Positions 5,321 through 53,182 of a stretch of 64,000 nt of DNA are shown piece by piece (the stretch's first letter is position 1; every line of letters begins with the position of its first letter). This DNA is from Thysanoteuthis rhombus (lineage: Eukaryota > Mollusca > Cephalopoda > Oegopsida > Thysanoteuthidae): contig OY735207.1 in assembly GCA_963457665.1 (NCBI GenBank), positions 61,897,888 through 61,961,887 of the forward strand. Reading direction: 5' to 3'. The position numbers were made by a program, and so were the translations under genes. The notes under the pieces were generated by a model. The model made no database searches, was not told the DNA's origin, and saw only the letters and a program-made list of their open reading frames with translations.

Positions 5321-5469
5321 TAAAGACAACGTAGCGGCCAAATTTTAGATTTTTGAAATATACGATACCCACTAAGACCTCAGACAACTAACAGCTGCTA
5401 TATCATGTCTGTCTTGTATTTTAATGTATTTTCAAAATCGTAAAATCTTGCCATTTTCTCCAATTCCAG

Positions 5470-22148
<16,679 letters not shown>

Positions 22149-33501: not shown

Positions 33502-36500
33502 CTAAGGACAAAAACTATGAATGTTACCAATCTAACAACAACTTGAGAAATCTGTGTGTCTGCATCACAATTAATTGACTAAATTAGCAACACTGAATTA
33601 TCTAAATTTAGATACAAAATATCTAAATTGGCAACACGGAAGAAAAGTAACCAAAATACTTCAAAGCCATAGTTTTATATGAAAGAAACTCATTTTACAT
33701 GACAATTATGGCAGGCTGCTCCACAGACTATTGTGTGATCCAGTTGCATGTTTTTCAAGGCCTGATACTAGATATCACTGATTGATATGAATCAAGAATT
33801 TTTTTTCAGAGAATTCTGGGTACTTTTACATCAATCTAACACATGCTAAATTAGAGGGTATATTCAAAGAATGAGATAAATTAAAATACACTTTATTAAC
33901 CACTTGGGACAAGATATTTAGCAAGAAATTTGGCCTTGGCCTTGACTACCGATTATGAATCAAATTGTGATTCAAAAAAATTTGTAAATGATAAAGGCAG
34001 TGAAAACAACGATTGTCCTGGAGCAGCTGACAAGATATTTCACCAACATAGCCAGGAAAAAAAAAGTGACAATTTTCACCAGGAGGTAAAATGAGTTAAA
34101 AAATCATATCTCAGTCTCAAGCAATTAATTTAGTATGGCACAAAGCTACAAGTATCTCAGCTGCAAGTGGTTAAATAAACACTTTTTGTTAAAAGATGAA
34201 AAAAGTACAAAGACTTATTTTCTTAATTAAATGATTTTTTTTATTTTGTATTTTTATTTTATTATTACAATAAAGAAATGTGGACAAGTTGAAAAGAGTC
34301 AAAGTTGCATAATGGATGATCAGCAAGAGAAAGATAAAAAGAGACTTCGAGGTTCCAAGTCACTCCCTGCTGTTATCACCAGCCATTGACACGCTCCCCC
34401 ACATCTCTTACCATGGCAATTTCTATATGCATCTTTTTTTTTCTTTTTTTTTTCTTTTAATCACACATATTACACATTGAGAGAAAAAAAAAAAAGGAAG
34501 GGGGCTAAGATGTGAAAATAAAATATGCATATATTTTTGTTATGTTTAGATCCATTCATTTTTTCTTTCTTCTTTCTCTGTCTCCAGTCCTCTCCACATT
34601 AGTGGTCAAATTTTTATGGTTTCTTTTTTCGTAATTTAAAAAATTATTTTTTATTTGAAAATGAAAAAAAAAAGATGAAAAATATTTCAGTATTATTTAC
34701 CCCAGACATAAAAAAAGATGCAATTAACATTAAAAATGGAGGGAAAAAAAAGTGTATATATTTTCTATATATACCTGTTTTACATCTGATAAGTTTCATT
34801 TTTCAATTAAAAAAAAAAAAAAAGGAAGATAAATTAATCCCATTTACATAAAGCAAAAGACGAATATTGTGGACAATATGAATTTACACTCTAAACACAA
34901 AAACCTATGAAAAAATAGTTTACATAGAGAAAATTGAATCACATAAAAATGACATGCATTTTTATAAAATTTACCTCCACAAACATTCAAAATAGCAAAA
35001 AACAATGAACATTTGTTTTAAATACCTATGACTATATTTTTAAATTGATTTACATCCAGAAAAAAAGTATGGAAATTAATATATCTAAAAGAAAATATAT
35101 TTGTAGGTTTCAATGAAAGTACACAATTCACAAATAAGAAAATTAGCTTCAAAATGAAAATGTCTGTACAAAATAACAGACTATTTCTTATGTCTAAATA
35201 AAATGGATACAAAACCAAGAAACTACAATTGAAAAGGCTAAAAAAAAATCTTCAATAAGACATTACTTCCTCTAATATTCTATTTCTTCTCTTTCTATTT
35301 TACCATTCATTGTTCTAAGAAGTCGATAACATTTTTTCTTCTTTTTATAAATTTTTAGATTTTTGCCAAGTACAAAGGCATAGGAGAGAGAAAATTACAC
35401 ACTTTATCAAGACACAAACAGGGAAAAAGTAAAAATACACATAAATTTTAGAATCAATCCATGGCTTCGGTTATCTTTTCTTCATTTTTTTTTTTTAAAT
35501 TTTCCAATTCTTTTTAACTACTTCTTCATTCAAAATAATGCCCAATTTTTTTTTATCAAAATGAAAATTGCATTTTTATTTTTTCAAAGGGGGTGTAAGC
35601 ATTTTTTTTATTTTACCCTATTCCAAATTGCTGGTACACGTCACTCAACATTTCTCAAAGTATAAAAATCAAAACAAAAACATCTCTGCAGATGAGCACA
35701 GAAAAATTTTTTTTTTTAAACTGCCCACAAGAACAATTTTTTTAATGAAGTAGAAATTAAGATGACATTTAACAGTTGCATCTTGTCATTAAGATGTAAT
35801 TCAAAGGTTGTTTTTTTTTCTATTTAATACTCTACCAATCAAAATGCATCCATGTGGCTTTTGGATAAGTATTTTGTAAAAGCTTCAGAATATTAATACT
35901 GTTAATATTTCATTTTTTTTTTTAAATTGTGTGCGCAAAATGATAAAATTGTTAGATAATCATCATCATGTAGAATAGAAAATCTTTCTAAATCTGAATA
36001 TCAGCTCAATGAATCAAAAGCTTGTACACCACCCCCTCAATATTTTTTCTCAATTTTTTGAGCATATGGAATCAAATGCAAATTATTCTGGGAATAAAAT
36101 TGATCCTTTAACAATCTTGCATTTGGTTTTTTAAAGGTTTTTTTTTTTTTTGTTGGGAATTCTTTTTCGTTTTTTTTCATTTCCAGCTTCAGATTAAAAA
36201 TGTTTAATCTGGACTGTTTGTTCAGGATGTAGATGCAAGATCTCCAACCTGAAAATGTAACTGTTTACAGTCACGAGCACCAAGGACGAACCTTGATGCT
36301 TAAAATGATAGTGATTCACAGGCGAAATACATGACAGTAGAGCCGAGACAAAAGAAAAAAAAAAAAAGAAAGAAATTTAGCAATCCACCCCTGCAATCAC
36401 TTCTTGAGACATAAGCCACCATTAATCAATAAGTTTGGCTTGAGTTATAGTAATGTTGCTTTGCTTGTATTTGTCTTTAATGACTAACATTACCACTGAC

Positions 36501-36566: not shown

Positions 36567-36790
36567 TCAACTGCTGCTGTTGATGCTATTATTTCCAGCA
36601 CCAACACTGCCTCCAATGTAGTTGTCCAATATCCTGACCAAGTCCAAGCGATTAATTTCTATCAAAATGTTACGCAGGTCCAATATGGTGCAATTGGCAT
36701 CAGAGGCTGACCACTCCCATAGCAAGCTCTCACTTGGGTCCTTACAGTTTTCACACGAGTTCACATGAGTCAGAGACATGTTTAGGTGTG
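36567..36790 (-). CDS. Exon 9 of PDZ-Roco-Death gene: second half of Death domain, stop
   Basis: The acceptor is tttctaatag; 224 nt. It encodes THLNMSLTHVNSCENC, then DPSESLLWEWS, CTILDLRNILIEINRLDL and VRILDNYIGG. Helices 3-6 of a Death domain are clear. The tail SINSSS and the TGA lie in a GCT/AGC-rich stretch that could vary in length. Confidence 0.82.
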
Positions 36791-39700
36791 CTATTAGAAA
36801 AAAACAAAAAACAAACACAGGATTTAATAAAGACAAAAACAAGTGCTAATGACACAAACAATAATTTAATACAAAGAATAATTTGCTATGGCTGCATCTA
36901 AACGATCAGGATGTTATCTAGCTTTCTCACTAGCTGTTTAACAGATAATTCTCAATAGGAAAATTTCAATTTCTTGATTAAGCTGAATGTGTTTTGGGCC
37001 ATTTTTTTTTCTTTAAATAAATACTAACACAAAAATTCAGATCTTAGAAAACTTCTCAATCCTATAAAAACGATGGGGAAATTAAATTTCTTGCGAACAC
37101 ACTGTGGATATACTTCATATCTACTCTAAATAATCCCTAGCTCATGTAGAACAGCCATTCTTGACCTTTCTTTTTTAGTCTTCTCAAAAACTCTTCTTGA
37201 GTTTCAGGACTACCACAAACAAATAGATAGAAATTCATTTATTATTATTTGAGCCTATAAATGTGCTGTGGTACCCAAGATGACCATGAGGCCCCAGTTA
37301 AGAATGGCTGATGTAGATGATTATACTGAATACAACTTTTACTAAAGCTAAAGTTTATGCAGTTAGAAAGGCCTAGAAAAGCTGGGTGCTGATCTACATT
37401 CCAATTACGATTTACTTCCTATTCTGTTTCCAAAGGGGATTGGTTTATAGTAAATGCAAACTGTCCCAGCTGGAGTTGGAACTACCATTAACCATTGGGC
37501 TACCTTCATCTCCAAAAATTACTTGAATATAGAAATTAGGTGCTGCTTAGTGAGATTCTTTTTTTATCATTGTGTGACAAAGACAATATTTTCCATCCCA
37601 CTAAAAAAAGGCCATTCTGGTGGAAAGATGAACAACAAATATTCAGAAAATTCTTTCTCAAAATAAATTGAATTTGGTGAAGGCTTCAGAGGGGAAACCA
37701 ATAGAAAAAATTAAATGAAATAAAATATTGCTATAGCATTGATTTGGTGTTGCTTGCAAAATAAAGTCAATTTTGAAATGAGATGCCCCTTAATTAATAA
37801 AAGTTACAGAATGTGGGGTTTTGAGGTGAGTAGAAAACTTGACTTTGAAATGCAAAAGATAAAAAGATGAACACTTAAGATAGGAAACACCACAAAAGAC
37901 ACGTCTTCTGAACCATCATCCATCTAAAACAATATATAAAAAAGAAATAAGAAATGAACGAGAATTAAAGTCAATACTAACTTGCAATTTTCTTCCATCC
38001 ATGTTCTGGTCTTTCGTTCAAGCCATTACAGATACATTTTATCACGTTATAGTTTGCATTAAAAACTAAAGTTTCTTCCATTGATGGGGCTTGTTTTTTC
38101 TAAAAAACAAAATAAAATTTTTAAAAGATTTATGGAAAGAGAAAAGCATACTGCATGTATACAAATTTACTAGTACTATGCAAGAAATGTTTTTCTGGAT
38201 TTCCTCTCAAGACAATAATTACTTTTTACAATCATCAATCACTAATTCATCTTTTCATTGAAAAAAACTTATGCTTTTAGAAAATGTCATAACACAAAAG
38301 ATACTCTATTTCCCAACTGATAAGATGCTGAAAGCGATGAGACATGTGATATAGTTAGCAAGTATTTGGAGGAAAATATTCGAGGATAAAGTAGGTTACT
38401 GAATTAGCAAGTCCAATTCGCAGACTGTTGTGTCATTTTTCTCTCCATCACAGCTAATCATCACATTGTGGACATAATATCTCATACTTTCCAGAAAAAT
38501 ATAGCATCTTATCAGCCCAAGAGATACAATGTGATCAGTCATTATCATTCAACAAAATTAAATCTAATCACTTGCTCATCTTGCATTTATACATCAACGG
38601 TTTGTAAATGGATAAACTTTTCTCATAGAACAGAGGTGGGTCTAAATCCTAGGAGGGGAATTTATTCCATTTCAAAGTGTGTGCAAATGAATGAGCCTTA
38701 GGTGCTTATTTGAATGGTCACATCTCTGACACCTATTTTTCATAAAGGAATCAGCTTAATGGAATACATTGATAACAATTGATCAGAGAGGGGAGAAATA
38801 AATAAGAAAACACTTAACATATGATGCAGGGTCTACAACAGAGTGCCGTTTAAGAAATAAAAAGGCCGGGGGGGGGATCACTTCAAAAGAGTTTGAGAAC
38901 CACACCCAGAGGATAGAAACATGTTTTCTTTTACATTTACAATCAAAGCATATTTTATAGTAGAAGATGGATAACTGTTAGGATTTATTCATCACCACAA
39001 CAGCAAATATAACACAGGGTGGTGTTTAATTTTGGGCCCCCACATGCACAAGCATGAATAAAGGTAAAAATTAACCAGATGCCGTGGCTTGTGTCACAAA
39101 GATGTCAGGGTGACCCATGACCCTCCCCTTCAGCGGGTGGGGAGATGCTGTTCCCGAAAGGATCAGGCACATCTGCTTCAATTTAGTGCTCTGTCCAAGG
39201 ACAAGATAGAGCTAATGCCAACTGAAGTGTCAGGGATCAGGCTTGCCAAAAGGTATTCCATAAAAGTGACCTTGTACCAGACTTGGTTACAATCCTGATT
39301 TGCTTTTATAACAAACAGTAGAGGTATGAGCATCACAATAATGGGCTTCAGTGTCATCAAATATGCAGAATAGAGATTGTGTGATAAAATCCATCACAGC
39401 TCAAGTAAAGTTGTAAGGAAACAATACTCAACTTTTTATAGCTGTTTGTCAAAACCATCTGTTTTCATATCTATACAACGATCAAGTACTTTTCTCACCT
39501 TAGATTTTTCAGATAGACCCTTGTGGTATGGTTTTTCAAGATAGCGACATCTGATAACTGAGGGCCCACTATTTCTTTCATTTCCACAGTAAACACACAT
39601 GGGCCGATCGCAGCGTGGATGTTCCTTTAGGATATTCAAGGGGAAAACATGTTTGCAGACATTAGTAAGTTGCTTCCAGAATCTCATCAAAGTTGCACAG

Positions 39701-42700
39701 TGCTGTTCCTTGGTGAACTTATTCCTACAAGAGGAAAATAAAAAGAGAAGAAGGGTTAGAAAATTCTTAAAATTCTATCTTACCATATTAAACAACAGTA
39801 TCCATCAAAGGTGGTGAAAGATTGTAAGATGTTTGTGTGTTCCTGGCCATACTGCTTTGTCTACAGACTTGAAAATTGGCATCAGTACTCCAGTAAAAAA
39901 TGTGAAAAGCTTTTTTGGCCCTTATTTTGATAGCTGTATTTACAAGACCTAGATTCTCCATAATCTAAATGTTTCTAGATATTTTCTTACTCTATTTTAG
40001 ATGTTTTTCAATGGAAAATGCATGTGATGTCATAAACAGAATTTGTTCTGATCATATCTATTCCTTGATGAAATTTTTTTTACATGACTTCAAATTTTGA
40101 CGCCACAGTTGTTCAAATATTGTCAGTGATGACAAGTTGCTGTTCATTTTTGATGCACAAACTTGATTTATAAGATTCTATTCAAAAGTACAGGGAAAGA
40201 GAACAACATGCACTAACTGAATTTAATAAAAACTTTTGCCACTACCTTTGTGAAGAAGTGTTCAAGGCAAGGTTACTAATTAGAGGTAGTTGGTGGAGAC
40301 GAGTAGCATTTTTACCTTTCTTGACATTTTAAAAAAAAAAGGCAAAATACGCCAAAAATGCAGCTCATTTTTCTCCCATCTTCAATGTTAGAATTAACAA
40401 ACAAAAATATGCCAATTTTGACAATATTTTTTGTAAATGCCAGCAAATATGACAGCCATCACAGTTCAGAAATGATCTTTTCTAATAAAGTTATTTAAAA
40501 CTAAATGCTCCTAATGTTAACTAGTGAAAAAAAAAAAGAGTAAACATCTTGGCCAACTCAAGAGATTTTCATCTTTGCATTTAGAAGACATTAATGACAC
40601 CATAACTCAGTATATATCTGACACTTGATCTAACTTTCAGAAACTTTACTGACCATGATGTCATTGTCATAGATTTGCTTTACCATTCTTTCAACTGAGC
40701 AGTAGAATAGCTATACTTTCGCAACTGCACCACACATGGTATCCCATTGCAGACATCTCAAAAACTACGAGATCTCAAGAAATCAATAGAACGTTTGACA
40801 GCCTCAGTGAAACTAACAAACATTTTGGTAGTAGAGAAGACGATTAAACATTTTTTGCCACTCACCTTGTGGCTGAGATAGTAATATATTTTCCACTAGT
40901 ACCAGAGGTCAATGTTACTGGAGCCTGCTTGGTAGAAAAGATAGTTGCATGCTGTCTATCAATAAAAACCAGGATTCTAAATGCTGATTTTCTTGGCATG
41001 CATGATCTCTCTATTCTAAAGGATTGACCACAATCATTTTACCCACTGTCCCCATCACACCTAGCTTTGTCATGTACTACACTAAGCTTAGTAAATATTG
41101 ATGGCAAACAAACAGACAAAATCAAATCATGGTAGACTCAGAAGCAGAAATAAAAATAGCATATCTGGTTAGTCACTAAATAGAAACCATCTCATGGCCA
41201 ACATCTTTTGGCAGCTTACCATGTTGGGGTGATCAATCAAAAAAATTGGAAAAAGGGGTGGACAATGAATAAATTATTTCTCACTTTTTGTTGAGCAGTG
41301 ATCACTAAAAAGCTCGAATTTTCAAAAAACAGGCATGAACACTGCCAGACACAAACAAAAGAGCCAATTTAGCATAAACTAACATTGTTAATTGAACCCT
41401 CACTAAAAACCTATTTTAGGGATGAATTTTCAAAAAACAAAACAAAAAAAAAAAGTTTTTTTAAAAACATAAGGAGTAAAAATTAAAATTTTCAGTCCCC
41501 TAGCTCCTTTGGTGCAGCCTGTACTTATAATACATACAAACATAGATAGCCAGCCAAACCAACTTGAAAACTAAAGAAACTCATGTTGACATTTTTGAAA
41601 AGAGTAAAAGTCACAGAGAAAATGCAAACATACCTGGGAATAATTCTTATCTGCCTAATGAGTGGCCTGAACTCAAAGATGAAAAGGAATTTCTCAAAAA
41701 CCATGTGACACACACAGAGCTGTAACTTCTGGCTGAAATCCCAACCTTGTGAATTACCAAATTGGACGACCAGCTCAAGGAAGTCCGTCCACATAATGTT
41801 TGTAGTAAAATCGATATAAAGCACATAAGAAGTCTCAGGCAACTCATTTAACCTCAATGAGACATTCTGCTGAAGGAATGGTACGTAATAATTTTTGCTC
41901 AGACGATGACCGTGGCTCTTAAGGCCAAAGATTACTTTGTTTGACTCGAGTACAGACAGGATCTCTAAGGCATTTGATTCATGTGGCTGCAGATGTTTTA
42001 GGAGTAGGCTGTGATGAATCATGGTGGAAGCAATGATGAGACCCTGTTGTTGCTCCTGAATGTTACTGCTTCTGCCAGACAGGATCGGATAGGCCATTTG
42101 TGACATGCATGTAAGAAGAAATTCAATGTTGGCGGCAAAGTAGAGACTATTGTGGGTGTGTCTACTTGGATGCAAGGTAGACCGTATTGGCCGGTCCTTC
42201 AGGTCAACTGAAATTTAAAAGAAGGAAAGAACAATGAAAGATGCAACTGAGTTAAATAAGAACTGAAAGTTCAATGAGGCATCAACTATTAAGTTTAAAC
42301 ACCATTATTGTCAGATCTCATAAGTGAGAGATAATTTCAGGTGAGAAGCACCTTATCAAGTTTCAAGTGAATCGGTCTTAAAAAACAGCTGAAAGACAAT
42401 GCAAGAACAGACCAATAGAAGAACCGAACTTCTTATATAGAGGCTAGGGCACCTCTAAAAATAGTTTAATCACCTCAATTATGCTTGTGCGTGTATTTTA
42501 CACATAGACAAACATTAACTAATTCTTCTCTCTACAATATGTTAGGCCCATGTAAATCCCACATGCCAAATATTTTAATAAAAGCACCAAAAAAATATTC
42601 ACAGAGCAAAAATACATGAAAAATCTAATAAATGGGGAGGTCCTAATAGAAAAAAAAACATCAAAAAATGAATACAGGAGGGAGAGGGGCTTTTATTTGG

Positions 42701-45700
42701 CACACGAGAAGTACCCTCTAAATTTCTTTGCTATGGTCTGGAATGTCAAAGCCAACCGCGTGCAATGATATCTGTACCTCACATAAATGAATCACCATAG
42801 CCTGTGCATGTACCAGAATTGATTAGGTAAAAAATTATCTAAAAAAAAAAAGAAAAAAAAAAAGGAAAATGGCAAAAGATTTAGGCATTGTTGATCCAAA
42901 ATGTCTAAGAGAACCCAAAAAGCGATATTTTGAAAGAAAAAAAATGTTTTTATATGGTGCCTCATGCTCCACTCATGCAAATTTTCAAGCTTGTAGTCTC
43001 AAAAACGTGACAAAAACCACTCAAACAGGCCACTTGGCTAGTTGCTCGGGCAGGTCATTTGTGCTACTACCATTAGTCGATATTCACTACACTATGACTG
43101 ATAAAAGGTTGATTACTTTCTTGAAATTTACAAGTTTTATGATAATAATAACTCTACAGACAGGTCATTCTTTCTAAATAAAAATATCTAGTTTGATTTT
43201 TCAGCTAACTTTTTGTAACAGCATAAAATATTTCTATTTTATTCATATCATTCAATTGATTTTTCTAGATAATCCCATCTTCTCAGAGATTTTTTTCCCA
43301 GACATTTCATTCTCCAGCCTTCTCCAGGTGGAAATTATAGCCAGCATTGACACTGCACTGAAATTCCACTTGGAAACTGAGAATGAATTCGTTGGTATCT
43401 CATGAAATAAAAAAACAACAAAGGTGATGGGGATAATCTTAAAAATTCATTTAATATTTCCAAGTCATCTGAAAACTTCAAACATTTTGTTCTAATAATT
43501 TTTCCAGCAACTTAATGATCATCTGATGTTATATTCATTTATAAAAAGAAGAAGTTTTGACTGTTGTTTCTTTTTTAGAATTTTATATTCATTTTTTTAT
43601 ATATTTATCATTTTTTTGCAGTACAGATTGAATAAACTTTAAAAACTCATTCAAATAAGCAGTCATTTAAACAAGTTTTTAAAAAAACGATTCGATAAGG
43701 GAGATTATAAATGCATACATCTAGATTGCTCTCCCTTGAGCTTTACATGAGTAGATTAGACAAAAATGCTCACTACAAAGAAATATCTAGTTCCTATTCT
43801 TCCCACGTTAAGTCTCGACCTTGTGTCATATTTTGCTGTAGAGGGACAGGCCAAAGAAATATCTTGGCAACAACTACATTTTCAAGAATTTCAATTGAGT
43901 ACCAAAAAAAATTTCTATTTTGAGTTTCATAAATATTTAGTTCTTTTTTTTCGTGAAATTATTACTTCCATAACTATCAATATTATTAAAAGGCTGCTAG
44001 GGCCAACAAATAATTTTCATCACAACTGTTTCAAAAATACTAATAAAATGAGGCAAAAGTATCACATAATTAAAAGACATAATACAAATCAGTTTGGCAG
44101 GACAGGTAAGTTCCTTTTCTTGGTACTATATTGATAACTTTCATTATAAGTTCACCTTAGAGAAAAAACAAAGTGTGCTATCCTAGATTAAAAAAAATCA
44201 CAAATCAGTTGAGCATCTTAAAGTCTGACTACAAAAACTTGGTAACATCAAAAATCAGACTATTTTAAAGAATAAGATAATTATCAAATTTTGTACGTTT
44301 ATATTTATCAATATGTAAAATACCATTCTTCCTGTATGACAATGTTTGTAGCATGAACATCATTAATTGAATTAAAAAAATCTTTTTTTAAAAAGCCATT
44401 ACAAAAATTTCCAGCAAATATTTTTTTGGTAAAACCTAAAAGATAAGGTAATTTTTTGGAAGCAGTACAAAGATATTTTGAAATTTCATAAAATTAAACG
44501 AGCACTTTGTTATCATTAGGGTACTCTTGATTCAAGGTCATTCATGTAACTTTGTGGTTTTAATGACCTGACCCTATAGTACGTGAAAGTAGGCCTAGTC
44601 TACGCCACACCAAAAACCCTGGAATTTCAGAAACTCAGAACACCCTCAGTCCCGAGGTTGCCAAGTTTGTGATGCTCGACTGAACCTAATTGATATGAAT
44701 TGAGCATCTGAAAGGATTCAAGAAGACAGTTACATGAAGACTTACCTCCAATAAATTCTCTCATTTGTTTGAGGTCAGAAACCACATCTAAAGCACCCTT
44801 TTCTGTAAACATTTTAAACATCTCCTTCACTGACAAATACAAATTGGGTATGATATTGGTCTCTGTCTTTTTCCGTTCAGACAAAAAGCGTAAAGTTGCC
44901 TGATTAACTTGGAGGGGTTTTGTATTATGGACAATATCAAATATCGAGCTGAAATAGTTGTCGACTGCACAGTGGTTAGCGCTCCTTGGGACCTCCAGCA
45001 GCTTTGTCTGCCTGCTTTTGTTCAGTAAAGACTGATGGCTGGATGCATGGCTACATTGACCGGCACCATGCTGGCACACCACAAACAAGCGGACGATGGC
45101 GTCTTTTCCAATACATGTATGCACCGTATGCAAGATTCGGCTAACCTCCTCATTGTCATTCATCTTGTCACACTCTACCATCACCAGGAAAATACTGTCC
45201 TTTGTGAAACTGATATTCATACAATTATGAAAAAATGACTCATCAAAAACAGCCAGAAGTTCAATAATATCCTGTTGAACCTGGTCCCCGAGCAAAGAAC
45301 ATCCCGCTGACTGCCATCTTGTGGTCCAGGGGCTTACAGAAAATGTCTGATTACCAATACGGTGAACACAGCAGGCCTTGAAGGCAGTGGTCTTGATGGG
45401 TGGCAAATACTGGTGATTGTGATTGTATGCCAATCCTAGGAAATCGTATTTTACACCAAAGGAGTTGAAGTAGGTCCCGGCTCCACTTCCAACCATGAAT
45501 ACTCGACGGCTGGGATAAATAACCTTCTGAAGCAGTTCCCAACCACGTAAAAGTTCCTGTTCAAATTTCACTGGCCGTTGGATGATGACCGATATCTCCG
45601 AGTTGTTCCTCAAAATCCTTTCAATTTTTTCTCTCTAAAACAGATAAAGAGACATTGAAATAACAAGAATTCATACAAATACTAGTGTATCTAACATTTC

Positions 45701-46067
45701 CCAAGTTATAAGAGTTTTCATGTTTTCAGTGACTAATAATCTATCTGAATATCATTTTATAAGCCAAAAGCATTCAAAATCAGTTCTAATATATTGTTAG
45801 GATTACCAAATGTAAACAACAAATATTTCTACTGATTTCAAGTCTTTCCCCCAAGGGAGTGATTAATGTATATCTATTGTCAATGACAGTGTTCTACAGT
45901 GGCAAAATAGTCAGAACACCTAACAGAGAAAAGACGGTGAACTGATTCATCAGAGTTTATCAGATGACCAAAACATTTTGGCAGATAATTGAGTGTGAAA
46001 GTTGCTCGAGTGAACTCTTCCATATTGTCAATTATCATCATCTTGTCAGATTTTTTACATCAACTAA

Positions 46068-46133
<66 letters not shown>

Positions 46134-49100
46134 AGCTTTACAGCTTCAAACACAAAACATTAAAAAACATTTTCTTTTTAAATATGCATATATTTATTCA
46201 TTCATGCATTATATTACTTTGAAATGATCTCCCTTTATTAGAAGGTGAATGCATTTGGCTTAGACTGCATAGATAGAATTGACTGCTCTAATTGTTTGAT
46301 TCCTGCAGCAGCCTCATTTCTTTTAATTGTTCATTCTACTGTCCAAGCCTATTATACATTCACCATGTAATAGCAAGAGATCATTTCAAATAGAGTTTCA
46401 AAGTAATGTAATCATTTCCATTGGATTATATATATATATAAAACCACACAGTCCCTGTGCTAAAAGTTGCAAACAACTGCACTAGTATGACTCTCCTTCA
46501 AAGGGATGGTAGAACTCTACAGCCAGCTTAGGCATCTACCAGCCACGGAATGTTGACATCTGGTGTGGTTTAACCACAAGTCAGATTTATTTCTGCAAAG
46601 AAGCAATAAAACTCCAATATTTAGCTAAAGCGTCTTCCAGAAGGGCATTCCTGTTAAACCTACAAGCTAGGGGCCCTGCTCTTATTGCACCACTTCAGTG
46701 GCTTTTTTTTTTTTCCTTTTGAAGCTTGAACATTCTGAATTGTCATTCACAGTGTTCAACCTTCAAAACAAAAAAAAAACAAAACAGCATTGTAGCTCTG
46801 AAAAATTACAGAAATATCAACTTTTTAACATGGTTCATGGAACACTTATGTACAGCCACTCACATATTCTATACTAAAACAGAAAATGTACGTATTGAAA
46901 CTTGCTTTGCATAACCAAGGCAATCACCCAATAAGACCAAATTGCTCTATTTCAGTCCCGCTCCAATCCACTGGAATACTCTATGTGTGATTGGATGTGT
47001 GCACATGTGTGTATATATAGGAAAGATAGATATTAGGGTAATTTTCACTTTACAAAAATTATTTGAAGACATACCTCTACTATAAATTTGATATCTATTC
47101 ATAACTATCATCTCTTCAATAACATTGAAAAATATTACCAATGTTCTCCCAAATTACTAGTTTCTTTTTCAAGACTATCACAAATCGTAACATTCAAACC
47201 TAGCTCATTGCCTAAAAATGAATGAAATAGAATAACTAACCACGGAGTAATGTTGACAAGGAACCCCATTCAAAGACAAGATAAGGTCTCCTCGTTTCAG
47301 TTTGCCAATCGTTTGTCCTTGAACGTGAGTGACCAAACAGAACTGGAAAAAAAAAAAAATTAACGTTATGTTGACAGCAGATTGGAGGAAAAAGATTATG
47401 AATAAATAAAAAGTTATAATAATCACTCCAACTTTTGTTCGGAGAATCTAATCTCTCCTTTTTATCCTCAACATTGTCGACACAACATTTCGGATGATCC
47501 ATTCTCCAACCTGCATCAGGTGTATAATTCAAGATAAGAGACAAACAGGGCCTTTTTTTTTCAATCATACGCCTGACAAGGGTTGAAGAATGGATCAGCC
47601 GAAACATTGGGTTGATAACACAGAGGATGGAAAGAAGAGATTTGAAAGTCCAAACAGGGTTGTATAGTTAATGACTTTTCTCAAAGTTATAGACATCAAA
47701 ATGAACATTCCACTGAAACTATAGCAACCCTTAGCAGCTACAAGTTGTCAGAATGGCTCTTTAAATTGATCAAAATTTTTTTTTTCAGTAAATCTAATAA
47801 TCTATAACTATTTGTTAGTTTGCATACTTAGGCTTTTATTAACATGATAATACCATTATTTGTTTAGGTTATGGGGATTGATTTGGATTTTCAAAGAAAT
47901 TTCTTACTTTTATACGTTATTTAAATATTACTCATTATCTAATTCAACCATATAATGAGCTTATATGCAAATTTTTCTGTTTGTTTGTGCACAAATGGAT
48001 TGATCTCATTGGTTGATTTACCCTCCTATTATGGCATAACAGAAATTGCGCTGTAGAAACTCCAAGACTTTATGTCTGATCATCAAACTTTAAAAACAGT
48101 ATGAGAGATGAATTGAAATTTTTTTTTTTCAAATTTTCATCAGAAACAAATTACCTAATAAAATAGCTTTAGGCTTGTCAGTGCCAATCCATACATAAAT
48201 AACACCATCACTTAGGGCAGGTATATTGTAGTTCATAATGACAGATGTGAGCACAGTCACAGCTGTTATGGAAGGCTTAAGAAAAGCTGTTTCCCAATAG
48301 TGGTTGATGATGATTATAAATTCAATTGCATAAATAAAAATTAATTTTTCATGGATATTTTTATTCTAAAGGTTTTGTTTGTAAATAGAAATTCATACTT
48401 CCAATTTCTACACAAAAAAGGGGTTTCTAGTACCCTGAAGATCAAAACTTTTCAAACCTTTTACTGTGGTGACACACATTTTTAAAATAATTTTCTATGA
48501 GACACATTAACCAAGTTTTGTTTGCTGATCCAAATATATAATGTCATCCAAAGCAGTTCAACTAACTCATGTAAAGTATGTTATGAAAGATATACAAAAT
48601 TATTCTCATTTTCATGATTCACCAAGAGATTATTGGCGACATGCAGTTATGAAAGATCATCTATGATCTTCATGAAAAATAATGATAGAATTAAGGTAAA
48701 CACTATTTCGCAAACTAGTGTCTTTTTGTTGCCTTATATGAAACTATTGACAATATAAAGAAAAAAAATTTTCTTAAAAACAAGAAACAATACGAACCAT
48801 GCTGCAATCCATGGAGCTTTCTAAACTATTTGTCTGCAGGACCCAAAATATGTCAATGAAAGAAGAAAAAAGAAAAAAGATATGAGATTTTTTTCTTCAA
48901 AAGTGTATCTCTATTAAATAAATCGTCAAACATTGTTTGGATCAGTGGTAGCTGACAGTAACTGAACTACACACCAGTTACTTTGAACAAACCTTTCATT
49001 AACCTTTGCTTTGACATGAAAAAACCTACGGCAGTATTAAAACCAGCACAGAAAGGCTCCAAAAGTCATACAGAGGCTCTAAAAAGAATAATTCTTTCAT

Positions 49101-51096
49101 CAAAAAGTATAATCAAACGTATTCATCAGAAATAAACGCACTAATGAACTTAAATGTACGTCATCATTTTGAGCAACTTGAATTGGTAGTCAGTTGGGTA
49201 CATTGCATATACTGTTTGTCCGCTTGGATAGTGTAATGGTTAGCACATCTGCCTTGCACCCAAAAGGTTCTGGTTTCAATTGAGCAACTGGTGAGCAATG
49301 AGTTTGAAAACTCTTCATAAGGACAAATTTCCATGCACTCAGCAGTAAACTGAGTACACCCTAAGCTGTGTGATCCTGCATGGTCATAAAAAGTTGTAGG
49401 TACAAAATCAAGGTCTCAACCTGACTTGAGACTAGCAAGGATCACTAAGCTGACCAATGCAACAGAAACCGAGACTTTGTTGCCGGCTGTAATACTCCAT
49501 TAGGGGTTGTCTCTTAAGAGACCTGATGGTTAATCTATGGATGCCAGTAAAGTAAGAACACCAGATCTAGAAGTAGGCAAATGTCCTGTTTGCACCCCCC
49601 AGCAGACATCTACATCCTCATTCCACCCTCTTTTGATGTGGATCATACACAGGAGGAAAGAGTTCAATAGTTTGAAAAACTCCCAAAATTACAATGACTC
49701 ATCTCAGAATTACAGAGGGTTATATTAACAGATCATATATAGATATATAAACAAGGTTTAGTCTAAAGCAAATTTTATTGCTATGCAAAGAAGATAAATC
49801 TTTGCTTATTTGATTGAAGTTCCACCTCTATACAACAACACAACTATAGATCTTTTAAAGTCCAAAATAGAGGCCTATGAAAAGATACACCGTTGCAAAC
49901 AACCGAACCAAAAAAGGGTGTCCTTTTTAGCCAATAAACAAACAGAATCATTCACATTGTTTAGACAGTCATTTGGTGTGCAACATCTGGACAAAATTTT
50001 ATTGAAAGATATAGAGGATCAACAAAAAAAAGTGTCTGCTCAACAATAGCATAATGAAATAAGCAAAGATAAGGACTATAGTTGAGTAATCATACACAGA
50101 GGAAACTTTTTATTATAGTCACGGATAATATTACCAAACAGTTATTGTTATTAATAACAGTCAGTTCGGGAAAACTTTATTCAAAATGAATTGAAAATTC
50201 GAAAGAATTAAAAATAAATTTCATATCAATTTTTCAATAAATCTAAAGTTGTATAACAATAAACGTAAATTGTTCCTATTTTTATATCTTTTGCTTAATG
50301 TTATCAACCGGTTATTGTTATTGAAACAGCACTCCCTTGAAGAGATCACAAAGTAGCTTCCTCTGTATTAACAAATGCAATCAGACATTTTCTTGCCCAC
50401 ATCCTCCAAATCATTCATCATTCTTTTTAATTCCGCAACCCAAGATAGAAAGGTGAAAATCTAACTCACAGAGGACGGTATTATGTCATACTCAAAATTG
50501 AAAGATCCATCCTGTGACTTGCATAGTTTTATCTTCTTCGTTTTGTAGTCCCATTTGATTCGGTCAGGATACAGGAAGACTGCTTGCTGTAACGAGAGAG
50601 TTTCCATAATCGAACTCAGTGAGCCATTCGAGCGAGGTTGGCTCAGCTGAGGCAGAGGAAGTGACGACAACCGGAGAGACTGTCCATGAGGGAAAAACCG
50701 CCGACAATGGCTGGAACTCTGCTGCAACAGAGAATTCATGCTGCCAGTACTGTAGCTGCTACCGCTACTACAGTTGCTACTGCCTGCAAAACTGTCATCG
50801 TTGCAGTTCATCGTCATCACCTGGTCCTCATCATCCGAGCAGAGGCTGAGGCGTTCCCGAGCCTCCAGGAGAACTACCGTTCCAGTAGAGTTTCTCAGGA
50901 TATCTGTCACATCTGTCAACTTCTGCAAGTGGCGAATATCCTCACCATCAATTTTTGTGATGTACAGGCTTTTACGGAGTTCTTTAGACAAGCAGTTTTC
51001 TTTGACAATTGAGACTTTCACGTTAGACAGCTCAGACAGGTTTCCATTGTTGAATTTCTATGTAAGTTGAAAAAAAAGAAACAAATACATATATAA

Positions 51097-51128
<32 letters not shown>

Positions 51129-52163
51129 CACGCACACACACACAAACAAACACAATACAAATCAGGAATACAATATGATATAATATAATGCAACATCCGA
51201 TGTGTGATGGGTTTATTTCGTAAAGTGCTCAATACATTCAACATTAACATCAACATCACATTCAGTTAGAGTAGAACTATACATATACATATATAATTTG
51301 GACAAGCGGTATAACTGGCTAATTTGATATTAAACTCAACTATTACAGACATAGGATTATATCATAAACTAATCGTAGCCCACTTCCTGTAGAACTACAC
51401 TTTCGCACACCTGACCACAATTTTGCCAAAGACGCTAGTTATACCATTATAGAAAAAATAGAAAAAAAAATACTCCAATTGACATAACTAAAGTTCTAGA
51501 GAAACATGAAGATATGTGGATCAACAAACTCAAAACTCTGTATCCTAATGGATAAAACACTTAACTTAACAACCCTCATCACACAGATCTCTAATTCACA
51601 AAACTCCTACTAATAATATCCTCCCACCCACATCTAAGATACATTCAATACTGGAAGCTTCAAAGTCACCCAGACCCATACGAAAAATTCACCTAAGCCA
51701 GTTATACCACTTGTCCAAATCATAGCCAACACATTTTTGATAACTTGTAAGGTTGATACCTATGTAGCTCCTTGACCTCACCACCCCTCCATTTACACTA
51801 TCCCTAACATACCCCAAAAATCTAACTCCACATCACTTCCCTCCTACCCTGACACAGACTGCCCTCTCCAAGACCAACTGCTGCAGCTTAACCAAAGACT
51901 TCATAACTAGCTGGACTTTCTCTCACACAGCAGGATGTCTCCAGCAGCCTTTATAAAATATTTTACCCACAAGGTATAGCTCCTGGTAGTGAACTCTGGT
52001 TCCACATGGGAACTTTAAATCCTAAAAACACATACTTACACAGTGCACACCACTGAAGATGGGAAAAATTCCAAAACATGTCTGGACCATTAACATCTAA
52101 GGATTAATAAACCTTACCTCTGAGCACTTTACTCTAGAGTCTGTCTCACTCCTTACAGTTCAC

Positions 52164-52198
<35 letters not shown>

Positions 52199-53182
52199 AT
52201 TCTGCAGATATTCATCCATATCCCTAGATGGTTGAGAATGCAACCAAAAGTATTTTTCAACAAAAAAATATAAATTAAATAAGTTATTACCCTAACTCTA
52301 CTCTTCAAAAGCATTGGGGAAGTGCAACATGGGGAAGGATTCCTGGTACCAGGGCAAACCCATTTGTAAGAGTCAGATTCCATGACTTGTATAAAATCTT
52401 TTCAAACTTACATATGTTGTACAAAAATCATGAATCAATTGATTTCTCTGTTGCCTAGTTATGTTTTTGTTAGCTGCAAACAACATATCTTGGTATTTGG
52501 AGACCAAACATGGATATAAAAGATGCATGTCTTATGAGGTCATTACGATTCATCAAGTGTTACTGGTTATCATATGAGGTGCAATCCAAAAATTTGAGGA
52601 ATTTGAACAGTGCACATGAACTGAATGTAGACACAGTCATTTGATGCTACTTTTTGTGAGATCACTGTGTGTATATGCCTAATGTGACAACTTTAAAGGT
52701 GTTGGGTGGTGTAATTTTTTTAGAGTAGCACTTAGTACATGAAAAAATACTGGAAAAAAAAAAAGAAAAAAAAAGCATACTGATTCATGAATCACACATA
52801 GTACAATTTTATTTTAATATTGACAAGATAATATTTCATAGTAATCAAGGAACAATTGTAGATTACCTGGCACCTCACTACCTTAAACAGATGAAAATTC
52901 AGACAATGGGGGGATACTAAGTGTAGGCTTAAACATTCTCTTTTGCATTCACAAAGATCTCTCCTCTTTGGTTTCTGCTTACAAACATGTATACAAGTTA
53001 CGTTGCACCAAAAAGCACTCAAGACAAAACGTAGAGAAAACAAGTAAACTACTTACCTCAACTGCAATACTGAATCCTAGTTTGCCATCAGCGAGACGAG
53101 GCACTTCAATTTGGTAGGGTTCTGACCACAACCCTCTTGACTCTTCATTCCCCAATAAGCCATCAGTCTCTCCTATACCCAT
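36567..53182 (-). CDS. PDZ-PDZ-Roc-like-COR-Death domain protein (nine coding exons, complete)
   Basis: Join, in - order: 53182-53057, 51057-50470, 47342-47241, 45634-44746, 42207-41634, 40955-40866, 39724-39499, 38099-37982, 36790-36567. All introns are GT-AG on the minus strand, every phase matches, and 2937 nt give 978 residues plus stop. PDZ1 is about 25-108 (GKLGFSIAVE loop). A Ser-rich linker follows. PDZ2 is about 216-293 (KLKRGDLILSLNGVPC). A Roc-like region is about 310-500 (SIFLVMVECDK, then RLFVVCQHGAG) with no GxxxxGK[ST]. A COR-like region is about 533-850 (IIPNLYLSVKEMF; winged helix ALEILSVLESNKVIFGL then NYYVPFLQQ; Cys cluster 828-849). A Death domain is about 877-963 (GWKKIATHLNM, ESLLWEWS, LIEINRLDLVRILDNY). 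Family knowledge: Roc-COR plus Death occurs in DAPK1, and LRR/ankyrin Roco proteins are common. An N-terminal PDZ pair is new to me. A cytoplasmic scaffold role in Death-fold signalling is inference. Confidence 0.82.
37982..38099 (-). CDS. Exon 8 of PDZ-Roco-Death gene: first half of Death domain
   Basis: The acceptor is gttttttag and the donor GCAA|gttagt; 118 nt. It encodes KKQAPSMEETLVFNANYN, then ICNGLNERPEHGWKKIA. The L-N-x-x-x-x-x-GWKKIA signature is that of helices 1-2 of Death domains. Confidence 0.8.
38290..38540. repeat. Possible foldback element
   Basis: tgataagatgct (38318-38329) recurs inverted as agcatcttatca (38503-38514). Weaker complementarity extends outward. It lies in intron 7-8 of the minus gene. 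Confidence 0.35.
39499..39724 (-). CDS. Exon 7 of PDZ-Roco-Death gene: COR tail with Cys cluster
   Basis: The acceptor is ctcttgtag and the donor TCTAAG|gtgaga; 226 nt. It encodes LMRFWKQLTNVCKHVFP, then Cys828, Cys833, Cys836 and Cys849 (C-x4-C-x2-C-x12-C), a possible metal site like those after COR domains. The frame stays open to a TAA near 39436, so reading through the donor would give a shorter, Death-less protein. Splicing is preferred. Confidence 0.8.
39855..40125 (-). repeat. Dispersed repeat B, minus orientation
   Basis: This is the reverse complement of the 27366 copy: gacttgaaaattggcatc, tttctagatattttcttac and gatcatatctattccttgat. It lies in intron 6-7 of the PDZ-Roco-Death gene. 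Confidence 0.55.
40866..40955 (-). CDS. Exon 6 of PDZ-Roco-Death gene: COR C-lobe segment
   Basis: The acceptor is attgatag and the donor ACAAG|gtgagt. The 90 nt encode RQHATIFSTKQAPVTLTS and GKYITISATR. It is too short to be listed as an independent ORF. It is supported by both splice sites and by exact phase with its neighbours. Confidence 0.8.
41168..41560 (-). repeat. Dispersed repeat A, minus orientation
   Basis: The blocks ggttagtcactaaatagaaa, ttggggtgatcaatc, gcagtgatcacta and agccaatttagcataaacta appear in reverse order. It lies 74 bases past the donor of exon 5 of the PDZ-Roco-Death gene, in the same transcriptional direction. Confidence 0.6.
41634..42207 (-). CDS. Exon 5 of PDZ-Roco-Death gene: COR-like domain with winged helix
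   Basis: The acceptor is aaatttcag and the donor CCCAG|gtatgt; 574 nt. It encodes EQQQGLIIASTMIHHSLLL, then ALEILSVLESNKVIFGL and NYYVPFLQQN. This fits the COR winged-helix pattern in which a Leu-rich helix and a short hydrophobic strand precede Y-x-V-P-x-L. The beta-rich part that follows (SYVLYIDFT, KFLFIFEFRPLI) also fits. Confidence 0.85.
42290..42390 (+). repeat. Dispersed repeat D, short copy
   Basis: The blocks agataatttcaggtgagaag and tcaagtttcaagtgaatcgg match 33040-33225. Confidence 0.4.
42660..43070 (-). repeat. Dispersed repeat C
   Basis: The reverse complement matches 57060-57410: gaatcaccatagcctgtg, ttgttgatccaaaatg and gcaaattttcaagcttg. It is rich in A and T runs. Confidence 0.5.
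44746..45634 (-). CDS. Exon 4 of PDZ-Roco-Death gene: end of PDZ2 and Roc-like domain
   Basis: The acceptor is tgttttag and the donor GGAG|gtaagt; 889 nt. It opens with REKIERILRNNSEISVIIQR (PDZ2 alpha-B and last strand). The segment VFMVGSGAGTYFN sits where a P-loop would be but has no GK[ST]. DSIFLVMVECDK and RLFVVCQHG resemble Roc G3/G4-side strands with key residues replaced. IIPNLYLSVKEMF resembles the Roc-COR junction. Confidence 0.85.
46069..46130. repeat. (CA)n(TA)n microsatellite
   Basis: CA run then TA repeat in intron 3-4 of the PDZ-Roco-Death gene. Confidence 0.95.
47241..47342 (-). CDS. Exon 3 of PDZ-Roco-Death gene: core of PDZ2
   Basis: The acceptor is a T-run then ccag and the donor TCCGTG|gttagt. 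The 102 nt are in phase 0. It encodes FCLVTHVQGQTIGKLKRGD and LILSLNGVPCQHYSV, a clear PDZ core (G-K-L-K-R-G-D-L-I-L-S-L-N-G). Confidence 0.88.
47440..47640. repeat. Two facing Penelope-like end motifs
   Basis: 47455-47525 (-) and 47565-47620 (+) each contain CTGA ... GGAGAATGGATCA or GAAGAATGGATCA, then CCGAAATGTT or CCGAAACATT. They form an imperfect inverted pair in intron 2-3 of the PDZ-Roco-Death gene. Confidence 0.35.
49215..49560 (+). mobile_element. tRNA-derived SINE
   Basis: tggatagtgtaatggttagc (A box) and ggttctggtttcaattg (B box) form a tRNA-like head. A body of about 250 bp follows, ending near gtctcttaagagacctgatg. It lies in intron 2-3 of the PDZ-Roco-Death gene. Confidence 0.5.
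50120..50330. repeat. Short element with direct repeats
   Basis: ggataatattaccaaacagt...ttattgttatt and taatgttatcaaccggttat...tgttatt lie about 170 bases apart. A related sequence occurs at 17440-17475 (cagataatgttatcagtctg). Confidence 0.35.
50470..51057 (-). CDS. Exon 2 of PDZ-Roco-Death gene: rest of PDZ1, Ser-rich linker, start of PDZ2
   Basis: The acceptor is acttacatag and the donor TCCTCT|gtgagt. The 588 nt are in phase 0. It encodes LRKSLYITKIDGEDIRHL and TGTVVLLEARERL (PDZ1). An acidic start (CSDDED) and a linker dense in Ser, Gly and Asn follow, then LQQAVFLYPDRIKWDYK and KIKLCKSQDGSFNFEYD (PDZ2 strand and a degenerate loop SFNF). Confidence 0.85.
51101..51145. repeat. (TA)n(CA)n microsatellite
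   Basis: It lies about 45 bases from the exon 2 acceptor of the minus gene. Confidence 0.9.
51300..52165 (+). mobile_element. Penelope-like element, C-terminal coding relic and 3' region
   Basis: A broken frame gives KVLEKHEDMWINKLKTLYPN, like the W-x-x-x-L-x-T-x-x-P-x-G-L-N stretch of Penelope GIY-YIG regions. The 3' part contains CTGAAGATGGGAAAAAT ... AAAACATG. It lies in intron 1-2 of the PDZ-Roco-Death gene, antisense to it. Confidence 0.5.
52166..52196. repeat. (TA)n microsatellite
   Basis: It marks the 3' boundary of the 51300-52165 Penelope-like element. Confidence 0.9.

Follow-up and report, generated by a model that had tools for sequence, protein, structure and literature searches.

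In CARMA/CARD11 the domains follow the order CARD-coiled coil-PDZ-SH3-GUK, and UNC5, PIDD and the ankyrins have the arrangement ZU5-UPA-Death; we know of no PDZ domain in UNC5, PIDD or the ankyrins. In the GTP-binding P-loop the motif is GxxxxGK[ST]. The DAPK1 group, as it is described in excerpts of Roco reviews, has a kinase ahead of Roc-COR and a Death domain behind it, with no LRR, and an excerpted survey counts up to forty ROCO domain combinations in animals, among which PDZ may be included. According to the excerpts of two further papers, the sea-anemone protein NG3 combines kinase, Death, TIR, SH3 and Roc/COR (PMC5094078), and in Aplysia ROCO is present in MyD88-like, TLR and TIR proteins (PMC9334734).

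The gene described here lies in a stretch of 64,000 nucleotides of the genome of Thysanoteuthis rhombus (hereafter the window), and from its sequence it looks like a real gene for a protein with two PDZ domains, a long core and a Death domain. The protein resembles CARMA/CARD11 in carrying PDZ and a death-fold domain on one scaffold, and differs from it in that the N-terminal CARD, the SH3 and the GUK of CARMA/CARD11 were not matched. With UNC5, PIDD and the ankyrins it shares a C-terminal Death domain behind a regulatory core, but unlike them it has no ZU5 match. It is like the DAPK1 group, as far as the review excerpts describe that group, in its C-terminal Death domain, in the lack of an LRR match and perhaps in a Roc-COR core, whereas it has PDZ domains and has neither a kinase or ankyrin match, nor the P-loop lysine, nor a detectable Roc or COR. 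NG3 and the Aplysia proteins likewise join Death with other adaptor modules in one protein, in lineage-limited combinations; in the excerpts of those papers, however, Roc/COR was found by domain search, TIR or kinase is carried and PDZ goes unmentioned. Since Death together with other modules, in some cases with Roc-COR, is known in invertebrates (sea anemones, Aplysia), the architecture is a variation on published combinations and not a new class of protein. A PDZ-Roc-COR-Death protein was not named among the matches listed in the open-access literature.

The gene occupies positions 53182 to 36567 of the window on the minus strand, exactly where the first-pass annotation had placed a multi-exon gene. 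Eight exons of 126, 588, 102, 889, 574, 226, 118 and 224 nt (5′ to 3′), joined by script, run in phase to a product of 948 amino acids followed by TGA; GT donors and AG acceptors were found at all seven introns, which are 1.2-3.1 kb in size and have the phases 0, 0, 0, 1, 2, 0 and 1. The in-phase joining that had been proposed was confirmed, and the nine exons and 978 residues given with it were not reproduced. When the other boundaries were kept fixed, three candidates for an extra in-phase exon of 87 nt were present in the seven introns, intron 1 contributing two and intron 3 the third; the nine-exon model was rejected, the candidate of intron 3 being such that it would disrupt PDZ2 and none of the three being convincing. 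The start of the protein is well placed, as there is an in-frame TGA seven codons upstream of the ATG, itself preceded by a pyrimidine-rich acceptor-like site, and this acceptor-like site makes a 5′ untranslated exon upstream of the ATG likely.

Exon 1 (53057..53182, minus strand as all the others) contains the ATG and residues 1-42, with the first strands of PDZ1 and a KLGF motif, which we take to be the PDZ binding loop. Exon 2 (50470..51057; residues 43-238) encodes the remainder of PDZ1, a Ser-rich linker and the start of PDZ2, whose middle is on exon 3 (47241..47342; residues 239-272), with a PDZ_6 match at residues 251-292. A single exon, exon 4 (44746..45634; residues 273-568), encodes both the last part of PDZ2 and the first half of the core, which by eye resembles Roc, so that PDZ2 and the core are tied together. 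Exon 5 (41634..42207) continues the core with a second portion that by eye resembles COR, and exon 6 (39499..39724) completes it with the Cys-rich stretch CDRPMCVYC. Exon 7 (37982..38099; residues 836-874) carries the first part of the Death domain and exon 8 (36567..36790) the rest of it, the C-terminal tail and the stop.

Domain matches cross three of the seven junctions, namely 1/2 (PDZ1, sub-threshold), 3/4 (PDZ2) and 7/8 (Death). The chance of open frames of 296, 196 and 190 codons was calculated as 1.9e-9, 1.7e-6 and 2.5e-6, respectively, from the stop rate of the introns of the same gene (0.066 per codon); these values are optimistic because the GC content of most exons (0.33-0.47) exceeds that of the introns (0.31-0.36). 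At least one stop is present in each non-coding frame of every exon, save for two in the 102-nt exon 3. The consistent phases, the length of the frames and the domain matches led us to reject both open frames arising by chance and a frame borne by a repeat. A search of the genome (an assembly of 2.73 Gb in 514 contigs) with the protein found no second copy: nine candidates were scored and gave eight matches, all eight being the exons of the gene itself.

The HMM search, which had been proposed as a check of the architecture, gave PDZ and Death matches above the Pfam cut-offs and none for Roc or COR. On the whole protein, Death was matched with an E value of 1e-8 at residues 857-932, above the curated cut-off, PDZ_6 with 1.8e-7 (31.2 bits, cut-off 27) and PDZ with 9e-6 (26.4 bits, cut-off 23.2), each of the two PDZ models covering two stretches when hits up to a permissive E of 10 were admitted. 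Scanned alone, PDZ1 was below cut-off, with PDZ_6 at 0.0038 (17.4 bits) and PDZ at 0.047 (14.5 bits; residues 26-105). In comparisons with PDB sequences, the Death region matched NRADD (0.0012), the PDZ2 region 2djt, an unnamed protein, at 0.019 and the PDZ domains of PTPN13, DLG4, syntenin and ZO-1 at 0.09 or above, and PDZ1 matched LIMK2 alone, at 1.1. The sequence matches thus make the Death and PDZ2 assignments firm and the PDZ1 assignment likely, so that the claim of a single protein with two PDZ domains at its N-terminus and Death at its C-terminus is supported, less firmly for PDZ1. One further Pfam family appeared on the whole protein, a bacterial Death-like model which at 0.014 did not reach the cut-off. 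Kinase, ankyrin repeats, LRR, ZU5 (up to E 10), SH3, GUK and CARD had no Pfam match on the whole protein, the missing N-terminal kinase and ankyrin repeats being judged on the N-terminus set by the in-frame upstream stop; NCBIfam (three exons) and PADLOC (two exons) gave no match.

Elsewhere in the window, exons of another PDZ gene lie on the plus strand at 5425-22145, with PDZ fragments near 6.3 kb (0.053), 11.0 kb (3.5e-8) and 15.6 kb (PDZ_6, 8e-6). It includes a stretch with a faint resemblance to harmonin-homology domains (CCM2_C 0.086 and USH1C_N 0.1, none at E 0.01), and we presume that it may be a relative of whirlin or PDZD7. Frames at 18584-20412, also on the plus strand, resemble by eye the remains of a non-LTR retroelement; Pfam scans of three of them at E 0.01 gave no match.

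The core of the protein with the Death domain (residues ~286-835) had been described as Roc-like and COR-like, and no significant test came out in support of this. Neither Roc (PF08477), on the whole protein, exon 4 and a 399-residue core, nor COR (PF16095 and PF25497; COR-A and COR-B), on the whole protein, the exons and the same core, had a Pfam match up to E 10, a limit at which the HMMER filters still remove most weak matches. As controls from the same genome, an LRR-type Roco (L019) gave Roc at 2e-9, COR-A at 7.3e-9 and COR-B at 1.6e-6, and a DAPK1-type exon gave COR-A at 4.8e-4 and COR-B at 8.3e-3, both below cut-off, together with Death at 1.8e-14. Scans of the genome with the COR-A model found seven other places (three above cut-off, one of the seven DAPK1-type), those with COR-B found two (one above cut-off), and neither picked up our locus.

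We also built a Roc-COR profile from eight sequences, three from the same genome and five bacterial ones taken from plasmids; a pattern search of the genome contigs collection yielded no Roco relatives, and viral contigs held no relatives of exons 4 and 5. With this profile the COR of DAPK1 scored 14.3 bits against 5.7 for its best shuffle, and the core scored -0.3 bits, under its best shuffles (2.8, 2.6, 2.0, 1.3 and 1.0; 200 made, 148 reported). The five bacterial sequences alone gave the core 3.8 bits, with two shuffles higher (5.2 and 4.1), and the profile without L022 gave 0.6 bits, with shuffles reaching 7.8. Semi-global alignment to the profiles, judged against 60 shuffles, gave z values of -1.1 and -0.7 for the core and 6.2 and 3.7 for DAPK1. 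Pairwise alignment of the core with four Roco sequences gave z values from -0.7 to 2.4, the best being equalled by 10 of 300 shuffles; this result is weak evidence, because the COR of DAPK1 likewise fails the pairwise test against three other Rocos. Against five pieces of the DAPK1-type gene of the genome no pairwise z exceeded 1.9, and the joined pieces gave 0.7; hhalign with the three Rocos of the same genome returned a probability of 0.05 of 100 (single-sequence query), and BLASTP of the whole protein against the DAPK1-type exon found nothing better than E 4. The best hits of three overlapping Roco profiles on the core were at 122-218, 329-398 and 121-168 (numbered from residue 286), within the band expected for Roc/COR. 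Among 2000 shuffles, 150, 92 and 8 scored at least as high as the core irrespective of the band, and 31, 17 and 4 did so inside it, in a comparison whose three profiles are not independent and whose band was drawn after earlier profile hits had been seen. This is a weak positional hint towards a degenerate Roc-COR core.

Read by eye, exon 4 shows in its second half the strand, helix, strand, helix order of a G domain (IFLVMVE, EEVSRILHTVHTCI, VRLFVVCQH). The P-loop position in the same exon reads GSGAGTYF (within VGSGAGTYF), without the lysine, whereas GxxxxGK[ST] is present in all eight Roco sequences of our profile. AlphaFold predictions from the single sequence were of low confidence, with a mean pLDDT of 34.2 for exon 4 alone and 38.6 for exon 5 alone and a pTM of 0.26 for both. 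A Roc-COR identity of the core is a reasonable guess, as yet unproven.

The link to DAPK1 drawn by the first-pass annotation gained no support from comparison within the genome. A separate DAPK1-type gene is present on a different contig (L029-L030, G000:C2:7977000-7996700), with Death and a sub-threshold COR by Pfam and, by eye, upstream ankyrin-like exons and a Roc with the intact P-loop GSTAVGKS. We aligned the Death domain of the PDZ-Death gene with 11 Death matches of the genome, a set that does not contain its own Death domain, which an intron interrupts. The highest z values belonged to L037 (9.8, a 66-residue frame) and L036 (8.4), followed by L041 (5.0), L040 (4.3), DAPK1 (4.0) and six others (3.6 to -1.1), in a noisy test that gives negative scores to two of these 11 genuine Death matches; a shorter stretch of the DAPK1 Death gave 5.1. 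Because the Death domain aligns better with L037 and L036 than with that of DAPK1, descent from DAPK1 is not indicated. The genome also holds a Roc-COR gene with LRR by eye and an open frame of 1064 residues (L019, L031 and L038; G000:C345:19715-20635 and 33629-33868), and a Death match lies about 13 kb downstream of its Roc-COR frame on the same strand.

Given that the searches revealed no catalytic domain and that the sequence lacks the P-loop lysine, the protein most likely works as an adaptor. The reading that we prefer, at a probability of about 0.55, is a PDZ-PDZ-Death adaptor with a non-catalytic core that is most likely a degenerate Roc-COR no longer binding GTP. In such an adaptor PDZ1, with its KLGF loop kept, would anchor the adaptor by binding a membrane protein at its C-terminus, the core, ~550 residues long, would serve as a non-catalytic spacer or dimeriser, presumably a degenerate Roc-COR that has lost GTP binding, and the Death domain would recruit a Death-fold partner; receptor anchoring would thereby become local assembly of a signalling complex. 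Evenly poised, in our judgement, is the more specific proposal of a further animal Roco type, made of two PDZ domains, a Roc-COR lacking the GTP-binding residues and a Death domain, in which a former GTPase switch would have become a static dimeriser.

The same PDZ-PDZ-Death adaptor could instead have a core of a different or undescribed kind, a scaffold unrelated to Roco proteins. We hold this to be possible and distinctly less probable: it would explain why Roc and COR gained no significant support in any test and why the guanine-binding motifs are missing by eye, and it agrees with the DAPK1 Death not being the nearest to that of the gene, but the positional hint from the three Roco profiles speaks against it, as does the predicted order of strands and helices, which together with the Cys-rich end of the core fits Roc-COR-A-COR-B by eye only. 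Improbable, in our opinion, is a Roco derived from DAPK1 that lost its kinase and ankyrin repeats, gained PDZ and kept GTP switching. The C-terminal Death domain and the lack of an LRR match are indeed those of the DAPK1 group in the review excerpts; the missing P-loop lysine and the better alignment of the Death domain with other Death stretches argue against it, and so does the similarity to the DAPK1-type Roc/COR pieces of the genome, which is not above chance in a test that the COR of DAPK1 itself fails against other Rocos. Least probable of all is that two adjacent genes, one with PDZ and one with Death, were wrongly joined, as introns of 1.2-3.1 kb might allow, since the end of PDZ2 and the core share exon 4, the phases are consistent through seven introns, and a break could only fall at junction 4/5 or later.

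In the preferred reading, that of an adaptor with a degenerate Roc-COR core, PDZ membrane anchoring would be joined directly to Death-fold assembly on a single polypeptide, and we know of no named protein in which the two are so combined. Should the core prove to be a Roc-COR that does not bind GTP, it would show that the module can act as a pure scaffold, with a bearing on the extent to which GTP switching and dimerisation are separable in LRRK2 and DAPK1.
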